The notes under the pieces are model-generated. The model did not search any database. It was given only the letters and a program-made list of their open reading frames with translations, and was not told the DNA's origin. 56,442 nucleotides of DNA, from NCBI GenBank assembly GCA_030592645.1, contig JAUVIR010000012.1:1-56442 (forward strand), given 5' to 3'. This document shows, piece by piece, positions 39,151 to 52,367 of this stretch (positions within the stretch are counted from its first letter, which is position 1; every line of letters begins with the position of its first letter). The stretch is from Candidatus Fermentibacterota bacterium (GTDB taxonomy: Bacteria > Fermentibacterota > Fermentibacteria > Fermentibacterales > JCC-6). The translations under genes were made by a program, and so were the position numbers.

Positions 39151-40944
39151 CTGCCTGCCCAGATATATCAGAAGCCCGTGCAGGTCGGTCGGTCTTATTC
39201 CCGGGATTCTCTCCGCTCGCGCAAGGGTTTCCGGTCTTTCCCTTTCCAGAACTTCCCTTGCCTCCCAGCATATTTCATCTATCTCCATGTAGGAACTGAT
39301 TTCTCTGAGGTCGATCCTGTCCAGGTTTCTTCTGGATTCATGCCTCCTGAGGTTTCTCTCTATATAGCCTCTGTATTTTTCGTCCAGAAGTACTGACAGA
39401 AGGACTTTCTGATCCCGTTCAGCCAGAGATTCAGCCCGGGCACCAACAGCTTCAACGGTTACTCCTGGTCTTCTGCACCATTTGGAGAGCCTCATCCCGT
39501 CAGCCGTCTCGCTTTCGAGTATGCTGCAGATAAGTTCGGCTTCCTTCAGATTGGCTGACAGGAGTTCTTTCTTGTCTTCAGACAGTATCCCGAACCGGTT
39601 TCCCAGAAGGTAAAGCCGCCTGTCTGCATTGTCCTGTCTTAAATGAAGCCTGTTCTCAGCTCTTGATGAAAACATTCTGTAAGGCTCGTCCGCTCCCTTG
39701 CTTACTATATCGTCTATCATTACCCCTATGTACGAATTCATTCTGGATAGCTTCAGCGGTTCACTTTTTTTTGCGGTTCGAGCGGCGTTGGCTCCGGCAA
39801 CCAATCCAAGCCCCGCGGCTTCTTCGTATCCGGAAGTTCCGCATATCTGCCCGGCTGCAAACACATTATCTGTTTTTCTCAACCTGAGCGTATCATCAAT
39901 TTCAGAGAAGTGAAAGTAAGAATACTCAACTGCATAACCGTAATCAGATATTTCAGCGCTTTTAAATCCCCTCAGCGATCTAACCATTTTTATCTGCGCT
40001 TCCCTTGGAAGGCTGGTTGAAAGCCCGTTCAGGTAGAAATCTCTCGACTTGTATCCCATCGGTTCAACGTATATTCTGTGTCTCTGTCTATCAGGAAATT
40101 TGACAACCTTATCCTCGTAACTCGGACAGTACCTTGGTCCTGTACCCTCTATTCTTCCCGCCATCAGTGGAGATAGATGAAGATAATCCTTTGCTATATT
40201 CATCGTGTTTACGTCGGTATACGTTATGTAGCACACCTCTCCCTCCCTGTCCGGCATACCTTTTCCGAAACTGAAAGTGAAATCCGTATCTTCTGACCGC
40301 TGTACTTCAAGTTCTGAGGTATTCACCGTGCTTCTTACGATTCTTGCGGGAGTACCCGTCTTAAATCGTTCCACGTGAAACATTCTTTCTGCGAGGTCCC
40401 GCTCCAGCGCATCTGCAGAGATATCTCCTATTCTCCCGCCTTTCCAGTGTTCATCTCCTCTGAAAAGCCTGCCCCGGAGGAATGTCCCTGCGGCCAGTAC
40501 TACTGTTTTTCCCTTAACGATCCCGCATCCTCTGCACTTTACTCCAGAAACTCTTTCTGTGTCACCGCTGAGGCCCGTAACAACGTCCTCTATAATTTCT
40601 ATTCCGTTATTTTCTATGTATAACTGCTGTGCCCTTGCATACTCCGCAGCATCCGATTGAACTCTCGGACCCCACACAGCAGGTCCCTTTCTTCTGTTCA
40701 GCATCCTAAAATGCAGCGATGTGGCATCGGCTGATCGTGCCATTGATCCATCAAGCGCGTCGATTTCGCGGACGATAGTCCCCTTGGCGATTCCTCCAAT
40801 TGCGGGATTACACGACATTTCACCTATCCGGCTTGCCTTCGCTGATATCAGAACAACTCTGCAGTCTGCTCTTCTTGCTGCGAGCGCAGCTTCAATTCCT
40901 GCATGTCCCCCGCCGACTACAATTACATCAGGGGTGTCGATCAT
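39139..40944 (-). CDS. mnmG: tRNA uridine 5-carboxymethylaminomethyl modification enzyme MnmG (GidA)
   Basis: A 601-residue FAD enzyme that with MnmE modifies the wobble uridine of several tRNAs. The FAD motif is VIVVGGGHAGIEAALAA; MSCNPAIGGIAKG, RYCPSYEDKV and TSGYEEAAGLGLVAG are conserved. ATG 40944 overlaps the mnmE stop as ATGA. Contains one parS site in its coding region and a second across its stop. Normal length. Confidence 0.96.
   Translation of the reverse strand: MIDTPDVIVVGGGHAGIEAALAARRADCRVVLISAKASRIGEMSCNPAIGGIAKGTIVREIDALDGSMARSADATSLHFRMLNRRKGPAVWGPRVQSDAAEYARAQQLYIENNGIEIIEDVVTGLSGDTERVSGVKCRGCGIVKGKTVVLAAGTFLRGRLFRGDEHWKGGRIGDISADALERDLAERMFHVERFKTGTPARIVRSTVNTSELEVQRSEDTDFTFSFGKGMPDREGEVCYITYTDVNTMNIAKDYLHLSPLMAGRIEGTGPRYCPSYEDKVVKFPDRQRHRIYVEPMGYKSRDFYLNGLSTSLPREAQIKMVRSLRGFKSAEISDYGYAVEYSYFHFSEIDDTLRLRKTDNVFAAGQICGTSGYEEAAGLGLVAGANAARTAKKSEPLKLSRMNSYIGVMIDDIVSKGADEPYRMFSSRAENRLHLRQDNADRRLYLLGNRFGILSEDKKELLSANLKEAELICSILESETADGMRLSKWCRRPGVTVEAVGARAESLAERDQKVLLSVLLDEKYRGYIERNLRRHESRRNLDRIDLREISSYMEIDEICWEAREVLERERPETLARAERIPGIRPTDLHGLLIYLGRQRST
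40367..40382. promoter_or_regulatory. parS site 2 (ParB binding)
   Basis: CGTTCCACGTGAAACA differs from the Bacillus-type parS TGTTCCACGTGAAACA only in the first base. It lies within mnmG and encodes the residues FHVER. Confidence 0.92.
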
Positions 40945-42200
40945 TTTCCCACACACATACCGGACAGCGCCCGCTCAACGCTCAACTGTATGTTCTCTCC
41001 CCTGCCGAGAATTCGTCTGGCTTCGATCTCGGCTTCGCTCAGAAGTTCTGCCGCAAGTCCATATTCCCCGGATGATATGAAATTGAAAGACTCTTCTATG
41101 CTGCCAGCTATCCTGTCTGCGGCTCCTGAGAGAGACATGCTCCCTGGAATTCTTGACAGGATCGTCTTCAGTTCCTCCAGTCCCTCACCTGAGATCGCCG
41201 ATACGTTCAGGAAATCGGCTGTTTCCCTTTTAACGGTCAGATCACTTTTAGCGGCGATTTCAATTATCTCTCCGGCTCTTTTTCTTACTTTACCTGGAGG
41301 CGGTGTCTTGGCTCCAACTGACATCCAGATAACTCTTTCCGTTCCATCAAGTCCGTCGATAACTGCTTCCGATGCCGTTCTGTCCAATCCAAGTCCATCC
41401 GTTCCGGCAGTATCGCAGAGCTGCATTTTTCGGCCGCTGATTTCAATAATACAGCTCGATCCGTCTCGCGTGGTGCCCGGCTCCCCGGATACCAGAGCTC
41501 TGCCTTTTCCGCTCAGCAGATTGAAAAGCGTGGATTTTCCCGAATTCATCGGACCCATAAGCATTACTCTGCCCCTTTTCTCAATGGATGCAGCTTCTCT
41601 TTTAAAAACTCCCGCTCTGCCTGTCAGCTCGTCGAATATTCTCCCGATTACGTTGTCATCTCCGTCCAGATGCGCTTCACCGAATTCAATAATACCTTCA
41701 ACAGTTTCCCTTGCTCTTTCTATCCCGGAAAGGAGTTCCATGCAGCTGATTTCCGTTTCCCCGTTGAAGGTTGTCTGTTCCCTCTCTGTATCCCATAATG
41801 CTGCAAGTGCTATTATTTGAACGGCGCTAAGTTTTCCATTACCGAATGCCCTTCTCGCGAACTCACCCGGCTCGGCTTTTCTTGCACCGTTCTTTATCAG
41901 TATTTCCATTATTGTTCTGATCGATCGCGGTATTCCGTGACAGATGATCTCGACCATCTCTTCTCCGGTGAAACTGCTTCCCCGGGGCCAGGAAACAGCG
42001 ACGACCTCGTCAACGGTTCTGCCTTCCTCGAAAATCCTTCCGACCTTTCTTCGCATTCCCCTCAGCCGGTTCTTTTCTAAGGACATGATGTTTTCCAGAA
42101 GTTCAAAGGATCCGCTACCGCTGATCCTTATGACAGAAAGCGCGGATGTTCCCTCTGGTGTTGCAACCGCACAGATGATCTCGGGTGACATTGTATTCAC
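40941..42200 (-). CDS. mnmE: tRNA modification GTPase MnmE
   Basis: A 419-residue GTPase, somewhat shorter than the usual 450 or so. N-terminal tetrahydrofolate-binding domain (ICAVATPEGTSALSVIRISG), helical domain with inserted G domain, and the conserved C-terminal CVGK. G1 is GPMNSGKST, G2 GTTRD and G3 DTAG, but the G4 position reads AAKSD instead of NKxD, so the Asn that selects guanine is missing. The region between G3 and G4 is also unusual. GGAAGAG lies six bases from GTG 42200; ATG 42191 is an alternative. Partner mnmG is next. Confidence 0.9.
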   Translation of the reverse strand: MNTMSPEIICAVATPEGTSALSVIRISGSGSFELLENIMSLEKNRLRGMRRKVGRIFEEGRTVDEVVAVSWPRGSSFTGEEMVEIICHGIPRSIRTIMEILIKNGARKAEPGEFARRAFGNGKLSAVQIIALAALWDTEREQTTFNGETEISCMELLSGIERARETVEGIIEFGEAHLDGDDNVIGRIFDELTGRAGVFKREAASIEKRGRVMLMGPMNSGKSTLFNLLSGKGRALVSGEPGTTRDGSSCIIEISGRKMQLCDTAGTDGLGLDRTASEAVIDGLDGTERVIWMSVGAKTPPPGKVRKRAGEIIEIAAKSDLTVKRETADFLNVSAISGEGLEELKTILSRIPGSMSLSGAADRIAGSIEESFNFISSGEYGLAAELLSEAEIEARRILGRGENIQLSVERALSGMCVGK

Positions 42201-42239
42201 ATCTTACTCTTCCATGCAGAACATATCACTGAGAATACT

Positions 42240-43829
42240 TCAGCTCTTAACGGCCTCGAGCTTTTTCTTGATAAGCTGCTGCTGCCATATTGTCAGCAGG
42301 CTGTTGCTGAACCAGTACATGGTCAGGCCTGCCGGGAACCTCATGAAAAGGAATGTCATGAATATCGGCATCATGTACATCATACCCTTCTGGCTCTGAT
42401 CGGTCATGGTCATCTTCTGCTGAAGGAACATCGCTATTCCCATTAGAAGAGCAAGTATGCCGACGCCATGAAGTCCCAGTATCGGAGTCTGGAATGGAAT
42501 CAGTATTTCCGGTTTTGACAGATCTTGAATCCATAGCATGAATGGTGCTCCCCGCAGCTGCACAGAATTGGCAAGAACACGGTACAGAGCAAAGAATACA
42601 GGCATCTGCATAATGAGTGGAAGGCATCCTCCAAGGGGATTCACTCCTTCCTCGCGGTAAAGTTTCTGCATCGCGCTCTGCAGAGCCTTCGGGTCGTTCT
42701 TAAACTTTACCTGCAGTTCCTTCATCTTGGGCTGTACCTGTTTAAGCATTGCCATCGATTTGAAACTCTTAGTCGTAAGCGGCATTAGAACAAGTTTAAG
42801 CACTATTGCCAGCAGTATTATCTTGATCCCCCAGTTGCTGACGAACGATAGCACTGATGTGCAGAACCAGAAAAGCAGTCTTCCTATATCCCTGATTATC
42901 GGCCAGCCGAAATCCACCAGCCTGCTTGTGTCCCTGCCCAGCGCTCTCAGTCTGCTGTAATCAAGAGGTCCTGCGTATACAAATATCCTGTTATCCTGCA
43001 GGCCTATTGATGGAGATTCATCTTCCTCCGATGCGTAGAGGAATCCATACGCTCTATCGTAGGATTGGGGCATCATAATAATCGCAAAATACTGTGATCT
43101 CGCTGCAATCCACTCTACATTACCTACTTGTGCGTCCTCTGTAATGCTGTTCGAGCCTTTGCTTTTTACCTTCTCCGCGTTCCATTGAGCTTTGAAATAT
43201 CTTGAAAGATTGGAATTCATTTCGCTTACAGGGAGAATTCCAGCGTTCAGCGTTGTTGTTTCTGTTAAGCCCTCTGTCTCGTAAAGGAAACCGTACTGCC
43301 CGGGAGTGAATGTATACTTTACCTCCGTTTCGCCTGAGGGGTCGATGAATACAAGCGTCTGCGGAATTTCTCTGATAAGAACAGTATCTTCCGAAAGGGT
43401 TTCAAAAAAGGTGCTGTTACGTATCCAGCGGTTTCCGTTGAAGTTGATGCTTTCCCCGCTTCCGGCACCCGGGATGTCTTCATACTGGGGTAATTTCCAT
43501 CCTGTTACAGTTCCACCTATGGTTGAAATATCGGCTTCAACTATTACATTATCACCATCATATATGATAACCTTAATTACTCTTTCGTCAGGTAATATTT
43601 CTTCTATATCAGTATTATGTGTTTTATCAGAAGCTATCTCATCGTTTTGTTTATCAACAGATGCCGAGTCGTCCAGCACCGGCAGTTGTTCCTGCTGAAC
43701 GTATTCAATCGGCTGCGGCGAGGTCTGCGAACTGTCCGGTGTTCTCGATTTCCCCATGAACTGCCAGCTGATAAACAGCACCGCTGCCATTAATGCGGCA
43801 GCAAGAAGTAGCCTCTTTTGATCACTCAT
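42240..43829 (-). CDS. yidC: Membrane protein insertase YidC
   Basis: A 529-residue insertase of the Gram-negative type. One N-terminal transmembrane helix (residues about 8-25), a large periplasmic beta-domain (about 60-320) and the five-helix insertase core at the C-terminus, with PLTTKSFKSMAMLKQVQPKMKELQ and NPLGGCLPLIMQMPVFFALY. The long periplasmic domain supports a diderm host. Basic C-terminal tail. Start overlaps yidD stop (ATGA). Confidence 0.95.
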   Translation of the reverse strand: MSDQKRLLLAAALMAAVLFISWQFMGKSRTPDSSQTSPQPIEYVQQEQLPVLDDSASVDKQNDEIASDKTHNTDIEEILPDERVIKVIIYDGDNVIVEADISTIGGTVTGWKLPQYEDIPGAGSGESINFNGNRWIRNSTFFETLSEDTVLIREIPQTLVFIDPSGETEVKYTFTPGQYGFLYETEGLTETTTLNAGILPVSEMNSNLSRYFKAQWNAEKVKSKGSNSITEDAQVGNVEWIAARSQYFAIIMMPQSYDRAYGFLYASEEDESPSIGLQDNRIFVYAGPLDYSRLRALGRDTSRLVDFGWPIIRDIGRLLFWFCTSVLSFVSNWGIKIILLAIVLKLVLMPLTTKSFKSMAMLKQVQPKMKELQVKFKNDPKALQSAMQKLYREEGVNPLGGCLPLIMQMPVFFALYRVLANSVQLRGAPFMLWIQDLSKPEILIPFQTPILGLHGVGILALLMGIAMFLQQKMTMTDQSQKGMMYMMPIFMTFLFMRFPAGLTMYWFSNSLLTIWQQQLIKKKLEAVKS

Positions 43830-44089
43830 TTACGCTTCTCCCATTTGTCCGGAACAGGATCGTATCCGCCTTGTCTGAATGGATGGCATCGGAGCAGGCG
43901 CAATGTCGCCAGTTTCAGTCCTCTGATGACTCCGTACCTCCTTATAGCAGTTTCCGCATAAACACTGCAAGTCGGGTTGTATATGCAGCTCGACGGGAAC
44001 GCCGGCGATATGAATCTCCTGTATCCTTTGATTGTAGCTATTAGTAAAGACGCTGTCGCTCGTTTTATTCTGCAGCCTTTTTCACTCAT
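43826..44089 (-). CDS. yidD: Membrane protein insertion efficiency factor YidD
   Basis: An 87-residue small protein that assists YidC. Family signature: ISPAFPSSCIYNPTCSVYAETAIRRYG and RLLRCHPFRQGGYDPVP. The three conserved cysteines are kept. Twelve bases after the rnpA stop and overlapping yidC, in the usual order rpmH-rnpA-yidD-yidC. Confidence 0.94.
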   Translation of the reverse strand: MSEKGCRIKRATASLLIATIKGYRRFISPAFPSSCIYNPTCSVYAETAIRRYGVIRGLKLATLRLLRCHPFRQGGYDPVPDKWEKRK

Positions 44090-44101
44090 TACATTTTCTT
44101 T

Positions 44102-44578
44102 TCAGCGGGTATCGCTTTCTATTGCGGACACCATCTTCTCATAATCAGCTTTTATGTCCGCCCATCTTGCATCCCGCAGCTTTCCTGCCGGTAATATAAC
44201 AATATCCGCTCCGACACTTTTAGCACTCTGTGCCGCAGCAAGGCCTTTAATCCTTCTTCTCAGCAGGTTTCTCTTCACCGCATTTCCGCTTTTTGCGGAT
44301 AGTGAAAACCCCAGACGTATATTGCCCAGGGTATTCTTAATATATACAGCCCTGAATGATACACCCCTGAAAGCTTTACCTTTCCTGAAAACTCTTCTGA
44401 ACTGGTAACCTTTTTTCAGGGTTCTCTCTATCTTTATCAGGGAATCAATTTCTTTCTTCCCTTTCTCCTTCTTGCATTGATCGTTCTTCTGCCGCTCTTG
44501 GTCGACATTCTCTTCCGGAATCCATGTCTTCTTGCTTTCGAGAGGTTGCTTGGCTGAAAGGTTCTTTTCATTAATCAT
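44102..44578 (-). CDS. rnpA: RNase P protein component with N-terminal extension that encloses rpmH
   Basis: A 158-residue protein subunit of RNase P (usual length 105-125). The core begins at about residue 53 ([20 protein letters not shown]) and has the RNA-binding motif [12 protein letters not shown] near residue 115. Between the ATG at 44578 and the core there is no ATG, GTG or TTG in this frame, so the protein must carry about 50 extra residues, very rich in Lys, Glu and Gln, encoded by the DNA that also codes L34. AGGA stands seven bases upstream. GTG 44581 is one codon earlier. This architecture is known from Thermus. Confidence 0.88.
44437..44571 (-). CDS. rpmH: Ribosomal protein bL34, nested out of frame within rnpA
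   Basis: A 44-residue protein beginning MKRTFQPSN and ending GRKKLIP, with [15 protein letters not shown] in the middle: unmistakably bL34. ATG 44571 is separated from the rnpA ATG (44578-44576) by the four bases ATTA; both depend on the single AGGAAAGAG upstream. The stop (44437-44439) falls just before the conserved RnpA core. Every base is shared with the rnpA 5' region in another frame. Confidence 0.96.
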
Positions 44579-44590
44579 CACTCTTTCCTG

Positions 44591-44617
44591 AATCCCCGCC
44601 TTGACGGCGGTGGGATT
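44591..44617 (-). promoter_or_regulatory. Leader hairpin before rpmH/rnpA
   Basis: On the minus strand AATCCCACCGCC pairs with GGCGGGGATT around GTCAA, a ten-pair GC-rich stem with a two-base bulge. It ends just before the shared AGGA ribosome-binding site. There is no T tract, so it is a leader structure and not a terminator. Confidence 0.6.
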
Positions 44618-44673
44618 ACTGCATCAGTTTCAACGGTCAGGTAAATATCTATCTCTGGAGTCAACGATTGTGA

Positions 44674-44702
44674 AAGTTAGCCAATATAATCATATATGTC
44701 AA
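44674..44702 (-). promoter_or_regulatory. Probable promoter for rpmH/rnpA
   Basis: Minus strand TTGACA (44702-44697), 17-base spacer, TAACTT (44679-44674). Perfect -35, weak -10. The predicted start near 44667 gives a leader of about 90 bases that includes the hairpin. Confidence 0.55.
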
Positions 44703-44893
44703 GTATTTGAGTGCACTCTTTTCAGATACCGCAAGGTTTTCAACATTATGTGCTCGCTTGAAATGCGTTTTTTCTTTAAGTTGCTGGATTTCATAAAGTT
44801 ATCGTATATACCAGGTGTTGATATCCCTGTTGATAAGTATCGTTGTTTGCTGCATGCTATCACTTTACGCTGCATTCTTTGATTGGAACATTA
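44703..44893. other. Divergent AT-rich region upstream of dnaA
   Basis: With the two preceding features this fills the 312-base gap between rnpA and dnaA. It contains TTATCAACA on the minus strand (44828-44836), one mismatch from the DnaA box, and a similar ATATCAACA nearby. No convincing dnaA promoter and no RNA gene were seen. Confidence 0.4.
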
Positions 44894-46237
44894 ATGGATA
44901 ATTTCAATCCCACTGACTTATGGAACATGTGTCTTCTGGAGGCCGAAAAAAGACTTGAATCCACCGAATTCGAAGCATGGCTGAAGAATTCAACCTACGA
45001 AGACATCAATGGTACAAGACTTGTTATCAGGTTCCGAAACTCTTTTGTCGCAGGACATGCCAAAGACCGCTTCGGAAGTATGCTGGAGGAAATTATCCGA
45101 ACTATTTCCCAAAGGAGCGAACTTGCTCTTCAGTTCATAGGAGATCCTGCTGAACCGGGTCCTTCGGGTACAGAAAGGCTTACCCTTAATAGAGAGCCTC
45201 CTTCTTCCAATTACAGTTTCCTTCGCTCTAATTATACTTTCGATCATTTCGTCGTAGGTCCCAGTAATCAGCTGGCTCATGCGGGAGCTCTTGCGGTCAG
45301 TCGCGATATCGGTTCTACAAATTATAACCCTCTATTCATTTACGGAGGTGTCGGCCTCGGTAAGACTCATCTTATCCAGGCTATAGCGCATCGCCTGAGA
45401 CAGGAAGGCTCAAAGAGAACTTTCAGATACATTTCTACTGAGCTTCTTGTTGAAACTTTCATTAAGTGTGTGCTGCAGAATGACTATACTCTATTCCGGA
45501 AGCTCTTCCATGGTATCGACTATTTTCTTATGGATGATATACAGTTCCTCAAAGGAAAGGTTGAAACACAGGAGGCGTTCTTTCATCGTTTCAACGAGCT
45601 TCATCAGCAGGGGAAACAAATCGTTCTCACATCGGACAGACCTCCACACGAACTTCCCGATCTTCCCGAAAGGCTGATAAGCCGTTTTCAGTCCGGGCTT
45701 GTCGCGGATATCAAACCTCCTGAATATGAGACACGTCTGGCTATCCTTCAGCTTCTTGTAAGAGACGAAGAGCTGGAAGTAAGCCTGGATGTGCTTGATT
45801 TCATAGCATCTTCAATAAGGAAGAATGTTAGACAGTTGTCCGGTGTGATCCACAGACTCGCCGCAATGTCCAGGCTTACCGGGTGCAAGGTGGATATGGA
45901 TCTTGCTCAGAAGGAAATCCGTTCTTCACTTGGCACCATTACAAGAAGGCTGACTGCTGGTACTATTACTTCTGTTGTTGCGGAAAGTTTCGATGTTTTG
46001 CCAAAGCAGCTCAAAGGATCGGATAGAAAACATAATGTTCTTATACCAAGACAGGTGTCAATGTCACTTATTCGGGAACTTACTTCCTTGTCTCTTATGG
46101 AGATAGGTTCATTTTTCTCTGGAAGACATCATTCCACTATCCTTAATTCAATAGACAGGATCAAGGAACTCAAAGAGAACGATCCAGAACTCGAAAGAAA
46201 AATTGAAGAAATACGAAGTAAACTTATTTCAATCTGA
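44894..46237 (+). CDS. dnaA: Chromosomal replication initiator DnaA
   Basis: A 447-residue AAA+ initiator that binds DnaA boxes and melts the origin. Domain I (about 1-80) begins NPTDLWNMCLLEAEKRL; a short linker; AAA+ domain with Walker A GGVGLGKTHL and Walker B FLMDDIQFLKGK; and domain IV with the DNA-reading SLMEIGSFFSGRHHSTILNS. ATG 44894 starts domain I correctly; the longer frame from 44843 is less likely. The ribosome-binding site is weak, which may be a control point. Confidence 0.96.
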   Translation: MDNFNPTDLWNMCLLEAEKRLESTEFEAWLKNSTYEDINGTRLVIRFRNSFVAGHAKDRFGSMLEEIIRTISQRSELALQFIGDPAEPGPSGTERLTLNREPPSSNYSFLRSNYTFDHFVVGPSNQLAHAGALAVSRDIGSTNYNPLFIYGGVGLGKTHLIQAIAHRLRQEGSKRTFRYISTELLVETFIKCVLQNDYTLFRKLFHGIDYFLMDDIQFLKGKVETQEAFFHRFNELHQQGKQIVLTSDRPPHELPDLPERLISRFQSGLVADIKPPEYETRLAILQLLVRDEELEVSLDVLDFIASSIRKNVRQLSGVIHRLAAMSRLTGCKVDMDLAQKEIRSSLGTITRRLTAGTITSVVAESFDVLPKQLKGSDRKHNVLIPRQVSMSLIRELTSLSLMEIGSFFSGRHHSTILNSIDRIKELKENDPELERKIEEIRSKLISI

Positions 46238-46463
46238 AAATATCTAAACTGTCTATCGAAAGTTGTGTAAAACCATCTATTCCGGAATGTAGAAAACCCT
46301 CTTCTGTGGAAAAGTCTTATTTCACTATCACGTTTTCAACATTTCTTCAACACTAACATTAACTCCTGTCTTTTCCGCATGTGACATGTCCACATATCCA
46401 CATGTATAATAACTATCATTATTGTTCTAAAATTACTGTATTCATAAAGCTGGAGGATATCCC
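46238..46463. other. Putative replication origin (oriC) between dnaA and dnaN
   Basis: A 226-base AT-rich gap with four 9-mers resembling TTATCCACA: TTTTACACA (minus, 46264-46272), TTTTCCACA (minus, 46305-46313), ATGTCCACA (plus, 46386-46394) and ATATCCACA (plus, 46394-46402). The last two are in tandem and are followed by an AT-rich stretch to 46447 that could unwind. Gene orientation and nearby parS sites fit. Confidence 0.6.
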
Positions 46464-47585
46464 ATGATTAAACTTCTTGTTAACCATTCCGACTTGCTAA
46501 AAGGTCTTAATTGTGTAGCAACTGCCCTCCCTACAAGAAGCAGTCTTCCTTACCTCACTAACGTTCTTCTTGAAACAGATGGAGAAACACTTCGGTTATC
46601 AGCAACCGATCTGGATACTACGGTTATTACAACAATTCCAGCGTCAATTACAACTTCAGGATCAATTACACTTCCGGGAAAGAAACTGCACGAAATAGTA
46701 CGTGAACTGTCTGAAGAGGAAGTTCGTTTAAGCGGTACAGGCAATAGAATAACAATAAGCTGCGGAAATGGTTCTTTCACACTCAGCGGTAATTCCAGCG
46801 AGCAATTTCCATCCCTTCCATCAAAAAGTGATGTTGAGCCGGCATCAATTCCTGTCGACATCTTTGCTGACGCAATAAGGAAAACGTCTTATGCGGTAGC
46901 AAGAGACGATTACAGGGCAACTCTGAATGGCGCACTTCTTGACATCGATGAAAATGGATTTGAAATGGTCGCTACCGACGGACACAGGCTCAGCTGTATT
47001 ACTCTTGGAAGTATTACCGCTCCCGTTAATATCCATGCTCTTGTCACACAGAAAGCTCTTAACCTTTTCGCAAAATTAGCTTCCGAAGGTGACGTTCTTA
47101 TAAGTTACAAGGGTTCTCAGATTTCTTTTGAATTTGGTAATACTGTAATTTTCAGCAGAACAATAGACGGAGAATACCCTCCATACAAAAAAGTTATTCC
47201 CCAGGATAACGACTCTGTTCTCTCTACAGATAGAAGTGATCTGATATCGGTACTCAGAAGAGTCAAGACTATGGCAAACCCGACAACACACCAGATAAAA
47301 TTCTCACTTGAACCGGGTAAGGTTCTCGTTCATTCGGAAAGCGCTGACGCAGGAGATGCCCAGGAAGACCTTGCTGCTGAGTATGCGGGAAGTCCGTTTC
47401 AGATAGGTTTTAATGGAAATTTCCTCATGGAAATACTTCGAAACATGAGTTGCTCCAGAATATCGATGATGATGAAAGACAGCAATACGGCGGTGGTGAT
47501 AAAGGACGAGGAGGAATCAGATGATTCCGATTCATATCTCGCTCTGATTATGCCCGTCAAACTGTCAAAGGTTGCTGAAGAATAG
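46464..47585 (+). CDS. dnaN: DNA polymerase III sliding clamp (beta subunit)
   Basis: A 373-residue three-domain clamp. The start ATG has a perfect GGAGG eight bases upstream. LPYLTNVLLETDGETLRLSATDLD in domain 1, ATDGHRLSCITL in domain 2, and the C-terminal LALIMPVKL that closes the hydrophobic pocket are typical. It tethers polymerase and many other enzymes to DNA. Next to dnaA as usual, but recF is not the following gene. Confidence 0.97.
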   Translation: MIKLLVNHSDLLKGLNCVATALPTRSSLPYLTNVLLETDGETLRLSATDLDTTVITTIPASITTSGSITLPGKKLHEIVRELSEEEVRLSGTGNRITISCGNGSFTLSGNSSEQFPSLPSKSDVEPASIPVDIFADAIRKTSYAVARDDYRATLNGALLDIDENGFEMVATDGHRLSCITLGSITAPVNIHALVTQKALNLFAKLASEGDVLISYKGSQISFEFGNTVIFSRTIDGEYPPYKKVIPQDNDSVLSTDRSDLISVLRRVKTMANPTTHQIKFSLEPGKVLVHSESADAGDAQEDLAAEYAGSPFQIGFNGNFLMEILRNMSCSRISMMMKDSNTAVVIKDEEESDDSDSYLALIMPVKLSKVAEE

Positions 47586-47599
47586 TATCCGGTACTGCA

Positions 47600-47875
47600 G
47601 TGAAGAAAATAGACAGCCTTCTTCCGGATGTATTGAGAAATTTCAGTCTGGATATATACCAGAAAAGAAACAGTGCTGTCAGTATGTGGAAAGATATAGC
47701 GGGAGTCGAATTAGCATCTTTTGTAAAGCCTGTGGGCTTCGACGGATCTGTGCTTCTGCTGAAAATCATTCATCCGGCGGCATCAATGGAGATTGTACTG
47801 AGAAAGAAGGAAATACTGCACAAACTGAATTCAGTGCGGGATGAGGAACTGTTCACCGATCTGAAAACAGTGTAG
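47600..47875 (+). CDS. dciA: DciA-type (DUF721) protein
   Basis: A 91-residue protein with the DUF721 pattern: LPDVLRNFSLDIYQKRNSAVSMWKDIAGVELASFVKPVGFDGSVLLLKIIHPAASMEI. DciA proteins in other bacteria assist loading of the replicative helicase DnaB. It starts at GTG 47600, 14 bases after dnaN, and ends 23 bases before the gyrB start. In many genomes recF precedes this gene; here it is absent between dnaN and dciA. Confidence 0.8.
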   Translation: MKKIDSLLPDVLRNFSLDIYQKRNSAVSMWKDIAGVELASFVKPVGFDGSVLLLKIIHPAASMEIVLRKKEILHKLNSVRDEELFTDLKTV

Positions 47876-47898
47876 CGGGAAAGGTGGAAGGTAACAGT

Positions 47899-49824
47899 TT
47901 GACCGAGAACAATACAAATTATGACGCGAACTCGATCAAAGTTCTGAAGGGACTTGAACATGTCAGAAAAAGGCCGAGTATGTATATCGGCTCAACATCG
48001 CAGACATGTCTTCACCACCTGGTCTGGGAGGTAGTTGATAACAGTATTGATGAGGCTCAATCAGGTTTCTGTTCTTCAATAGATGTGATGCTGTACGCTG
48101 ACGGTTCGATCTCAGTTAACGACAACGGACGAGGAATTCCGATAGAGATGCACGAAAGCGGCAAGACAGCGCTTGAAGTGGTTATGACGACCCTGCATGC
48201 CGGAGGGAAATTCGACAATACAGCGTACAAAACATCAGGAGGGCTTCACGGTGTCGGCGTAAGCGTTGTCAACGCTCTGTCGTTATGGCTGTCCGTTGAG
48301 GTTCATAAAGGCGGGAATATATATCGACAGAGTTTTAATCGCGGGGAACCTGATGGACCGCAAGAGAATATAGGCAAAACGGATATTACGGGAACAATAA
48401 TCAGGTTCATGCCGGATTACGAAGAGATCTTCGAAACCTCTATGCTTAACTTTGAAACGTTGTCCGGCAGACTTCGCGAACTCGCGTATCTGAATAACGG
48501 ATTGAAGCTAACTATTTCCGATAAAAGACGAACGAACGCGGAAAGGCTGGAGGAGTACTGCTTCGAAGGAGGTCTGAGTTCGTTCGTATCGTATATAAAC
48601 GAAGCTCATACCACACTTCATGATCCTGTGAGAATTAGCGGAGAGTTCGATCTTGATGAGGATGGACTTATAATTATTGATGTAGCGCTTCAATACAATA
48701 AAGCCTTCCAGGAAGACATTTTCTCTTTTGTGAACAACATCAATACAATTGATGGCGGTACGCACCTGTCTGGAATGAAATCGGCTCTCACAAGAACCCT
48801 GAATGAATATGCCACATCAAACAGCATGTTCAACAGCAAGGATGATACATTCTCCGGAAGTGATGTAAGAGAGGGTCTGGCGGCTGTAATAAGTGTAAAG
48901 ATCCCAGATCCGCAATTCGAGGGTCAAACGAAAACCAGGCTTGGGAACAGAAATGTTCAAGGAGCTGTACTTTCCCACGTAAGCAGGGGGATATCAACTT
49001 TCCTCGAAGAAAACCCCTCTATCGCCAGAAACATCATTCAGAAATGCCTTCTTAACCATAGCTCCCGACAGGCCGCAAAAAAAGCCAGGGAACTTACAAG
49101 AAGGAAATCCGCACTTGAAACAGCAGCTCTTCCGGGAAAACTGGCCGATTGCTCCGTGAACAACCCGGAGGAAGCAGAGCTTTTCATTGTAGAGGGAAAT
49201 TCTGCCGGAGGTTCAGCGAAACAGGGCCGTAACAGACACTTCCAGGCTATACTTCCACTAAGAGGAAAGATTATCAATGTAGAGAAAGCACACCTTGCAA
49301 AAGTACTGAAGAACAACGAAATAAGGACCATCATCACTGCAGCCGGAACGGGTATCGAAGAGGATTTTGATATAAGCAACCTCAGGTACCATAAAATAAT
49401 CATCATGACAGATGCCGATGTTGATGGATCTCACATAAGAACTCTACTTCTTACGTTCTTTTACAGGCACATGATAGAACTGATAGAAAACGGATATATC
49501 TATATTGCGCAACCGCCACTGTACCTTCTGAAGAAGGGGAGTGTAAAGAGATACGCATATAATGAAGCAGAGAGAATAGAAATAGCAGAGGAGCTCGGAA
49601 ATACCGGCATCACAATGCAGAGATACAAAGGACTGGGTGAAATGAACCCGGATCAGCTATGGGCAACAACGATGGATCCCGAAAGACGGGTCCTTCTGAA
49701 GGTAAGGCTTGAGAACGTAATGGAGGCCAGTCATATTTTCTCCGTTCTCATGGGAGATGATGTGGAGCCGAGGCGTGAGTTCATACAGCAGCATGCAGCT
49801 GACGTGATGAATCTTGATGTATAG
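47899..49824 (+). CDS. gyrB: DNA gyrase subunit B
   Basis: A 641-residue ATPase subunit of gyrase. GHKL ATPase domain (SIKVLKGLEHVRKRPSMYIGS; NDNGRGIP; GGLHGVGVSVVNAL), transducer, and Toprim domain with EGNSAGGSAKQGR and DADVDGSHIR; the C-terminus has RYKGLGEMNP. TTG 47899 was preferred over GTG 47884 since GGAAGG lies eight bases before it and the residues after it match the family. Introduces negative supercoils with GyrA. Confidence 0.96.
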   Translation: MTENNTNYDANSIKVLKGLEHVRKRPSMYIGSTSQTCLHHLVWEVVDNSIDEAQSGFCSSIDVMLYADGSISVNDNGRGIPIEMHESGKTALEVVMTTLHAGGKFDNTAYKTSGGLHGVGVSVVNALSLWLSVEVHKGGNIYRQSFNRGEPDGPQENIGKTDITGTIIRFMPDYEEIFETSMLNFETLSGRLRELAYLNNGLKLTISDKRRTNAERLEEYCFEGGLSSFVSYINEAHTTLHDPVRISGEFDLDEDGLIIIDVALQYNKAFQEDIFSFVNNINTIDGGTHLSGMKSALTRTLNEYATSNSMFNSKDDTFSGSDVREGLAAVISVKIPDPQFEGQTKTRLGNRNVQGAVLSHVSRGISTFLEENPSIARNIIQKCLLNHSSRQAAKKARELTRRKSALETAALPGKLADCSVNNPEEAELFIVEGNSAGGSAKQGRNRHFQAILPLRGKIINVEKAHLAKVLKNNEIRTIITAAGTGIEEDFDISNLRYHKIIIMTDADVDGSHIRTLLLTFFYRHMIELIENGYIYIAQPPLYLLKKGSVKRYAYNEAERIEIAEELGNTGITMQRYKGLGEMNPDQLWATTMDPERRVLLKVRLENVMEASHIFSVLMGDDVEPRREFIQQHAADVMNLDV

Positions 49825-49883
49825 TGTCCCTTCAGTTGAAAGGACAGAGAACAACCTATGAATAAACCAGAAGGAACCTCAGT

Positions 49884-52367
49884 ATGACCGAAAAGGTTGA
49901 AGAAGATCAGTTGAACAGCAGTCATATAGGCAAACCGGATATCATTGATATAGAAGAGGAAATGAAACGCTCATACATGGATTATTCCATGAGCGTAATA
50001 GTTTCAAGAGCATTGCCGGATGTAAGAGATGGACTGAAACCGGTACACAGAAGAATTCTCTATTCGATGTACGAACAGAAACTGACCTACAAAAGGGCGT
50101 ACAGGAAATCAGCTACGGTTGTTGGTAATGTTCTGGGTAAATATCATCCTCACGGGGACTCCGCAGTTTACGACGCAATGGTTAGAATGGCACAGGATTT
50201 CTCATTACTGCACCCTCTTGTGGATGGACAGGGTAACTTCGGATCAATAGATGGCGATCCGGCAGCAGCATACAGATACACTGAGGCAAGAATGTCCAGG
50301 ATAGGTGCGGAAATGCTTCGTGATATCGACAAAGAAACCGTCGAGCTGGTTCCCAATTTCGACGATCGTCTGAAGGAACCGTCCATACTTCCATCCGGAA
50401 TACCGAATCTTCTTGTTAACGGCTCGTCCGGTATTGCGGTCGGAATGGCTACAAACATCCCCCCGCATAACCTTCGAGAGATAGTTGACGCATGCTGCAG
50501 CATCATCGAGAACCCGGACCTAACCGAAGAGGAGCTTTTCAGCATAGTAAAGGGTCCGGATTTCCCGACCGGCGGTATCATTATGGGTATGAGGGGCATC
50601 AGGGATTGCTACAGGACAGGAAAGGGGTCTATCCGTGTCCGCGGCAAAGTCAGTATCGAAGAAGCCCCAAGGGGCAGGGAAGCCATAATCATTACTGAGA
50701 TACCGTATCAGGTGAACAAGACCAGGCTCATAGAGAGTATAGCAGACCTTGTAAAGCAGAAAAAAATCGTATCCATAGCTGATCTCCGCGATGAGTCCGA
50801 CAGAGAGGGCATGCGCATAGTCATTATTCTGAAGAATGATGCTCTTTCCGAAGTGGTTCTGAACCAGCTTTACAAGCATACCACTCTTTCAAAGACATTC
50901 GGGGCAAACTGCCTTGCGCTCTGCAGCGGAAGGCCGCTGAGGCTTACGCTGCGCGATTTTCTGGACCATTACATTGACCACAGACATGATGTTATTGAGA
51001 GGCGTGTTAAGTTCGATCTTGCGAAGGCGGAAGCGAGATCCCACATCGTGGAAGGCTTGCTGAAGGCGCAGGATTCAATAGAAGAGGTTATCAGGGTCAT
51101 AAGGGAATCCGATAATACTGATGAAGCCAGATCCGCGCTGGTTGAAGGGTTCGGATTCTCCGAGATCCAGGCCCAGGCGATACTTGATATGCGCCTGAGA
51201 AGACTTACGGGTTTAGAACGGGATGAGCTGGAGAAAGAGTACAGCGAACTCAAAACCCTTCTGGCAGAACTCAAGGAAATCGCAGCAAGCAAATTGAAAA
51301 GGATGAGGATCATTGCTGACGAACTCTCGGCTGTCGCCGAAGAGTACGGCTGCTCCCGAAAAACGGAAATATTACCTTACGCACCGGGAGAAATTGATAT
51401 AGAAGACCTGATCCCGGACGATGAGATGGTAATCACCGTTTCGCGAGAGGGTTACATCAAAAGACTCTCGTCGGATACGTACAAAATCCAGCACAGGGGC
51501 GGCAAGGGTATTACCGGGGCAAAAACCCGGGAAGAGGATGCCCTGGAACAGATATTCATTTCTTCAAATCACAGCTATATCCTGTTTTTCACCAACCAGG
51601 GAAGATGCTACTGGCTCAAAGTGTACAGGATACCCGAAGCGGGCCGCATAAGTAAAGGAAAAGCTATAGTTAACCTTCTGGACCTTGAGCCGGAGGAAAG
51701 ACCGGTTGCCAACGTCTGCGTGAAGGAGTTCGATGAGGATCGATTCATCGTTATGGCAACCAGCAATGGTCTGGTGAAGAAGACGCCTCTATCCAGCTAC
51801 AGCCACCCGAGGAGAAATGGAATATGGGCCATCAAACTTGATGACAACGCCGAATTGGTCTCCGCCTCTCTCACAGACGGCAGCAGCAGGATCCTTCTTG
51901 CCCTTGCAGGCGGTAAAGCCAACAGGTTTTCCGAGATGGAAATCCGTGCCACCGGCAGGCATACAAGGGGAGTAATGGGCATCAGGGTGAACAAGAGCGA
52001 CAGGCTGGTCGGCATGGTTGCCATGGAGAGGCCGGGAAGCCTGCTAACAGTGACGGAGGGCGGGTACGGCAAAAGGACGCCATCTGAAGAGTACAGATTA
52101 ACCCACAGGGGAAGCGGCGGCGTTATAAACATTCGTAATATCGATAGAAATGGACCGGTTATTTCAATAATGCCGGTCTCCGAAGACGATGAGTTGATTC
52201 TTATCTCCGCACTTGGAATGATCATAAGGCTTCCAGTCGAGCAGATAAGGGAGATGGGACGGAGCACGATGGGCGTCAGACTGATGAACCTGCCGGAAGA
52301 AGACAGGGTCGTAGACGCAGCTATTATGCATCCCGGTGATAACATGGACCAGGGAGAATCGGAATAG
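49884..52367 (+). CDS. gyrA: DNA gyrase subunit A
   Basis: An 827-residue DNA-cutting subunit. The catalytic Tyr is in [12 protein letters not shown] (about residue 131), preceded by [20 protein letters not shown]. The C-terminal beta-pinwheel contains QHRGGKG, a gyrase-box variant (usual QRRGGRG), supporting gyrase over topoisomerase IV. AAGGA precedes the ATG. The stop TAG overlaps a possible ATA start of the next gene. Confidence 0.96.

Follow-up and report, generated by a model that had tools for sequence, protein, structure and literature searches.

The question raised by this locus is where translation of rnpA, the gene for the RNase P protein, begins. In the window, by which we mean the whole stretch of 56,442 nucleotides that was analysed, rpmH (44437..44571, reverse strand) encodes the 44-aa ribosomal protein bL34 (PF00468 E 1.4e-19; TIGR01030 E 2e-18), runs from an ATG at 44571-44569 to a terminal CCC TGA with the stop at 44439-44437, and lies wholly, out of frame, inside an rnpA frame that is open down to its own stop at 44104-44102. 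This extended frame (44102..44581, reverse strand) would give 159 or 158 aa from GTG44581 or ATG44578, and the Pfam Ribonuclease_P match occupies residues 52-153 of the 159-aa version. The core scores above the cut-offs of both RNase P protein profiles, PF00825 (E 1.8e-19; 70.2 bits against 22.3) and TIGR00188 (E 4.7e-17; 62.2 bits against 38.35), and is thus a member of that family. GTG 44581-44579 and ATG 44578-44576, both 5′ of rpmH, are the only canonical codons in the rnpA frame ahead of the conserved core; the near-cognate codons further downstream are ATT44575, ATT44521, ATT44449, CTG44440, ATA44437, ATA44431 and CTG44419. ATG44578 and the rpmH ATG are four bases (ATTA) apart, and the AGGA of the leader (44586..44589, reverse strand) stands 7 nt before the former and 14 nt before the latter. 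The nested layout, the lack of any ATG, GTG or TTG between the first codons and the RnpA core, and the sharing of one AGGA by two ATGs four bases apart had all been claimed in the sequence-only reading of this DNA, and the coordinates and profile matches bear them out. No signal was obtained from RNA folding across the region (z -0.24), and an Rfam search of positions 40000-50000 gave no match. An 87-aa ORF 3′ of rnpA (43826..44089, reverse strand) is presumably yidD, a name given by its position; gyrB, dnaN, rplT and rpmI are likewise names that we take from sequence or position. The order rpmH-rnpA-yidD-yidC has been reported for many bacteria (PMC10941002).

A comparable arrangement is described for Thermus in a report of 2022 (PMC9841429), which calls it the only described case. 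As presented there, the Thermus rnpA-rpmH locus resembles ours in that an open rnpA frame encloses the whole of rpmH out of frame and two close start codons follow one Shine-Dalgarno-like element. It differs in that the starts are one base apart in Thermus and the two ATGs four bases apart here, and in that here the frame is closed in near relatives that have RnpA all the same, downstream near-cognate codons are available and the extension is putative. Among the open-access papers listed by our searches, judged by titles and the openings of abstracts, we found neither a near-cognate rnpA start nor nesting outside Thermus.

The genus of the window has Candidatus Aegiribacteria / Fermentibacteria as its named relatives, and our phylum set yielded 39 rnpA matches in 42 genomes, every one of which was inspected. 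Within this set, the clade that holds the window comprises ten rnpA-bearing species (gyrB tree support 97/97) and an eleventh member, G014, without an rnpA match. The upstream rnpA frame is open across rpmH in 8 of the ten (the window and seven further species), where in-frame GTG/ATG codons stand at -10/-7 relative to the rpmH ATG, G013 having only the GTG of the pair, so the nesting does extend beyond a single genome, as had been suggested. The leader is similar across the clade (G018 has GGGA instead of AGGA) and in part of the remaining genus. An open frame says little on its own, because the equivalent relative frame is also open across rpmH in 16 of the 29 other phylum genomes; given this background, at least 8 of 10 open frames have a binomial probability of 0.10, relatedness aside, which is not clearly beyond chance and makes the openness weak evidence.

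What is unusual is that the ordinary start downstream has been lost. No canonical codon follows the rpmH start ahead of the core in 9 of the 10 clade members, as against none of the 29 other phylum genomes, all of which have an ATG, GTG or TTG downstream of the rpmH start. An ATG three codons 5′ of a conserved ACC is found in all 8 genus members outside the clade and in G011 within it; at this old start position, the other nine clade members carry ATA (5), AAA, ACA, TCG or ACT, and the comparison with the genus places an ATA there in the window (44429..44431, reverse strand). Seven of the nine members that lack a downstream canonical start keep the nested layout, and G003 and G018 do not.

These two species bear directly on the claim that RnpA must be extended by about 50 residues in the manner of Thermus. 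Closure of the rnpA frame by a stop within the rpmH of relatives, which had been proposed as the observation to look for against that claim, was found twice: there are three TAGs in G003 and one in G018, all arising from wobble changes that leave L34 unchanged, and the two closures fall on separate branches of the gyrB tree. No ATG, GTG or TTG remains before the RnpA core in either species, and their RnpA is conserved, intact and present in a single copy. Since the frames of G003 and G018 are closed and without a canonical start, RnpA is intact and TAG acts as a stop, RnpA can apparently start at a downstream non-AUG codon; judging from these genomes, RnpA synthesis in this clade can dispense with the upstream start and with canonical starts altogether, and the necessity of the extension falls. 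Three other accounts of the closed frames were considered and set aside. For recoding of TAG, TAG was found to terminate 1 of 14 long ORFs in G003 and 4 of 12 in G018, where the genes of their kin stop, the evidence being thinner for G003. For a pseudogene or a second rnpA copy, one intact match was found per genome. An assembly error in G003 is unlikely, in that its three TAGs are silent in L34 and occur also in L053. The latter contig, JAUWSQ010000006.1, has the identical three TAGs and is probably from the same assembly as G003.

The extension could nevertheless exist where the frame is open. On this reading rnpA would be translated from ATG44578 (or GTG44581) with a Lys/Glu-rich extension of about 50 residues, and G003 and G018 would have switched starts later; we regard it as unlikely, though by no means far-fetched. 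The eight open frames with their in-frame GTG/ATG ahead of rpmH and the AGGA close to ATG44578 speak for it, and the occurrence of three TAGs on the single G003 branch resembles relaxed constraint. At wobble sites where a T would create a stop, the eight open species have T at 0 of 80, compared with 31 of 99 at other T-capable sites; however, T is also uncommon at stop-creating sites outside the clade (10/95 and 14/212, or 24/307), where the frame is often open as well. The rpmH:gyrB ratio of synonymous change is 0.56 in the eight open species and 0.99 in 7 outside relatives, and at sites where T gives no stop it is 0.50 in the eight and 1.00 in 8 outsiders. But rplT (0.68) and rpmI (0.67) of the eight are slow too (0.81 and 0.68 in the seven outside relatives), and the additional slowing of rpmH over rplT and rpmI is not significant (p 0.08), with an open/closed split that is partly circular. 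The slow change of rpmH is thus compatible with an extension that is translated under loose constraint and does not show one. An AlphaFold model of the extended RnpA was too poor to interpret (mean pLDDT 42.8). Against the extension stand, above all, the two closed species with their RnpA, and also the persistence of the leader GTG: it is conserved in all ten clade members, G003 and G018 included, where it is unable to serve RnpA.

Which downstream codon might then be used? After the last TAG, the candidates common to all ten clade members are CTG44440 and CTG44419. The reading that we hold to be probable, if only just, is that rnpA of this clade lost its ancestral ATG and now begins at a near-cognate codon in the 3′-terminal part of rpmH, the likeliest being the CUG at 44438..44440 (reverse strand), which overlaps the rpmH stop UGA at 44439-44437 as CUGA. 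Under this proposal, rnpA (44102..44440, reverse strand; start codon inferred) would encode an ordinary RnpA of 112 residues, and residue 6 of the CUG-started protein does align with residue 7 of PDB chain 1d6t_A, an ordinary N-terminal length. The ribosome that terminates L34 at the UGA would restart one base back, in the -1 frame, on the overlapping CUG. A start this weak, drawing on an abundant upstream gene, would hold RnpA to small amounts compared with L34. The nesting would be a by-product, because the start-stop overlap forces rnpA into a frame that is often open across rpmH. The codon, the termination-reinitiation step and the role in dosage are all three deduced rather than observed.

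Several patterns of conservation point to CUG44440. The rpmH end CCCTGA is kept in 10 of 10 clade members and in 9 of the 29 other phylum genomes (Fisher p 1.5e-4, relatedness ignored); the nine comprise 5 of the 8 in the remaining genus and 4 of the 21 beyond it, and within the genus only, 10/10 against 5/8 gives p 0.07. A start that shares bases with the upstream stop (CTG 44440-44438, TGA 44439-44437) would accordingly, if CUG44440 is the start, be kept throughout the clade. The wobble C of the final rpmH proline is the only invariant one among the 12 four-fold sites of rpmH. In gyrB, 12 of 169 four-fold sites are invariant and none is an invariant C; in nine clade members, 14 of 43 are invariant in rplT, five of them C, and 4 of 20 in rpmI, none of them C, while the rpmI TAG is kept in 9/9. 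The invariant proline wobble C is therefore suggestive of CUG44440 and not proof of it, ribosomal genes being conserved anyway. In addition, the distance from the rpmH stop to the core ACC is 14 nt in all ten clade members, whereas six different distances between 13 and 183 nt occur among the 8 remaining genus members. Two of the latter, G008 (L031) and G015 (L049), have 183 nt between the rpmH stop and the rnpA core, and the others have 13-20 nt.

The proposed junction can be compared with overlaps of the AUGA type, which couple translation (PMC6728339). The likeness lies in a four-base overlap of stop and start, the -1 frame and, here, an abundant upstream gene; the difference is that the proposed start is CUG here (CTG or TTG in family f100, described below) and not AUG, GUG or UUG. 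CUG initiation is inefficient with the E. coli initiator tRNA, as stated in PMC11497404. By analogy, poor initiation would fit a low output of RnpA, yet it is the main argument against CUG44440. Also counting against this codon are its weak Shine-Dalgarno match, the equal invariance of CUG44419, the ATG at the old place in G011 and the upstream GTG in all ten members.

The duplex energies in the window, calculated without regard to spacing, are -3.3 kcal/mol for CUG44440, -6.9 for AUU44449, -5.7 for ATG44578 and -6.3 for GTG44581. Another near-cognate codon, perhaps one that depends on the species, could accordingly be the start, namely AUU44449, CUG44419 or ATA44431, and we judge this to be distinctly unlikely. 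AUU44449 (44447..44449, reverse strand), which lies inside rpmH, is better matched to the Shine-Dalgarno sequence than any other downstream candidate in the window; the position reads ATT in 8 of the ten clade members, including both closed species, and family f23 (below) seems to use AUU, but it is GTT in G009 and TTT in G016. CUG44419 (44417..44419, reverse strand), at the edge of the core, is CTG in 10/10, and its counterpart is well matched to the Shine-Dalgarno sequence in G013, G018, G009 and G011 (-6.0 to -7.3 kcal/mol); however, it would give an N-terminus shorter than those from the ATG starts of the genus and would leave the fixed 14-nt spacing unexplained. ATA44431 is replaced by AAA, ACA, TCG or ACT in four species.

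Two further readings deserve mention. In one of them, both starts would be used in the eight open species, AUG44578 giving an extended RnpA and a near-cognate codon a short one, and the overlap would be a stepping stone to Thermus-like nesting that has been taken more than once. The route would be that the overlap locks rnpA in the -1 frame, which is often open, that an upstream AUG then captures the gene, and that the old start decays; we find this combination rather unlikely. The other, a programmed -1 frameshift from rpmH that would yield an L34-RnpA fusion, is highly improbable. Relative to rpmH, rnpA does occupy the -1 frame in all ten clade members and in the 15 f100 and f23 genomes read, but this frame already follows from the start-stop overlap. 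No conserved slippery heptamer was seen by eye between the G018 TAG and the rpmH stop, and two f23 genomes, G317 and G414, have stops directly 5′ of the AUU.

Other lineages bear on whether a near-cognate start at the end of rpmH, the reading preferred above, is confined to this clade. A wider survey searched 388 genomes, of which 370 had a match, and among the matches listed 33 loci with a long frame and 60 with a shorter frame were fetched. Two of the 33 came from the phylum search, the long-framed G046 and G048 were omitted, and the long-frame set is biased to the -1 frame by choice; rpmH was recognised in 29 of the long-frame set and 46 of the shorter-frame set, and 18 loci were dropped. 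ATG, GTG and TTG are all absent between the rpmH start and the core in 8 of the 29 and 3 of the 46, respectively, and all 11 are in the -1 frame; five of these 11 have in-frame canonical codons upstream. Family f100 gave 8 matches in 9 genomes; here the codon that overlaps the rpmH TGA, at the same position as CUG44440, is CTG in 6 and TTG in 2 of the eight. The upstream frame of G138 is closed, and a canonical start is missing from both G138 and G408. In-frame canonical codons do stand upstream in G410, G409, G261, G374 and G413, which speaks against the proposal. Family f23 (L215-L222; 8 matches in 9 genomes, rpmH recognised in 7) has an ATT within the final two sense codons of rpmH in 7/7; the frame is closed inside rpmH in 5, 6 are without a canonical start, and the rnpA start of f23 appears to be this AUU. 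One f23 genome, G317, has AGGTGA 6 nt 5′ of the AUU. Given the exchange of CTG and TTG at one position in f100 and the AUU in the closed frames of f23, it is credible that a near-cognate rnpA start at the end of rpmH is a device that recurs.

The order of G343 (L223-L232) departs from this pattern. Of its 10 genomes, 9 have rnpA in the -1 frame relative to rpmH; in 8 of the 9 this frame crosses the whole of rpmH without a stop, and ATG, GTG and TTG are all missing after the rpmH start in those 8. Five have a GTG just 5′ of the Shine-Dalgarno-like (A)AGGAG/GGGAG stretch of rpmH, and no near-cognate codon common to L223-L232 was found at the rpmH stop; for this latter reason the CUG-overlap proposal does not cover every start-less genome, and this order may have real nesting. 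Two single loci are worth recording. G404 (L182) has an rnpA without an ATG, GTG or TTG start; at the edge of its core, an ATA follows AAGGAG at a distance of 6 nt. G036 (L044), of the same phylum as the window, has an in-frame ATG at -7 of an rpmH GTG and a frame open over rpmH, and a TTG at +68 is also present.

Taken over the genomes compared, a near-cognate start that overlaps the rpmH stop is likelier than an obligatory Thermus-like extension; in the eight open species an extended RnpA may be made in addition, and the L34:RnpA ratio may then be fixed. If the near-cognate start is correct, several bacterial lineages begin an essential gene on CUG or AUU where the neighbouring gene ends, and gene finders limited to AUG, GUG and UUG would misplace or extend rnpA, here to an apparent Thermus-like nesting. 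The supply of a scarce enzyme protein would also be coupled to that of an abundant ribosomal one, and full nesting would have a plausible evolutionary route.

A known parallel is infC, whose AUU/AUC start has a role in autoregulation. The likeness is that it, too, is a translation-related gene with a near-cognate start, and infC of the same genus seems to be started on ATC or ATT; the difference is that infC has GGAGG-like sequence close by, whereas the rnpA candidate is weakly matched but overlaps the upstream stop. Among the infC loci of the genus (L129-L146), 18 in number, the apparent start is ATC (10) or ATT (5) in the 15 whose 5′ end was found; these apparent starts are mostly preceded by the GGAGG-like sequence, and four of the 15 have a GTG eight codons further in.
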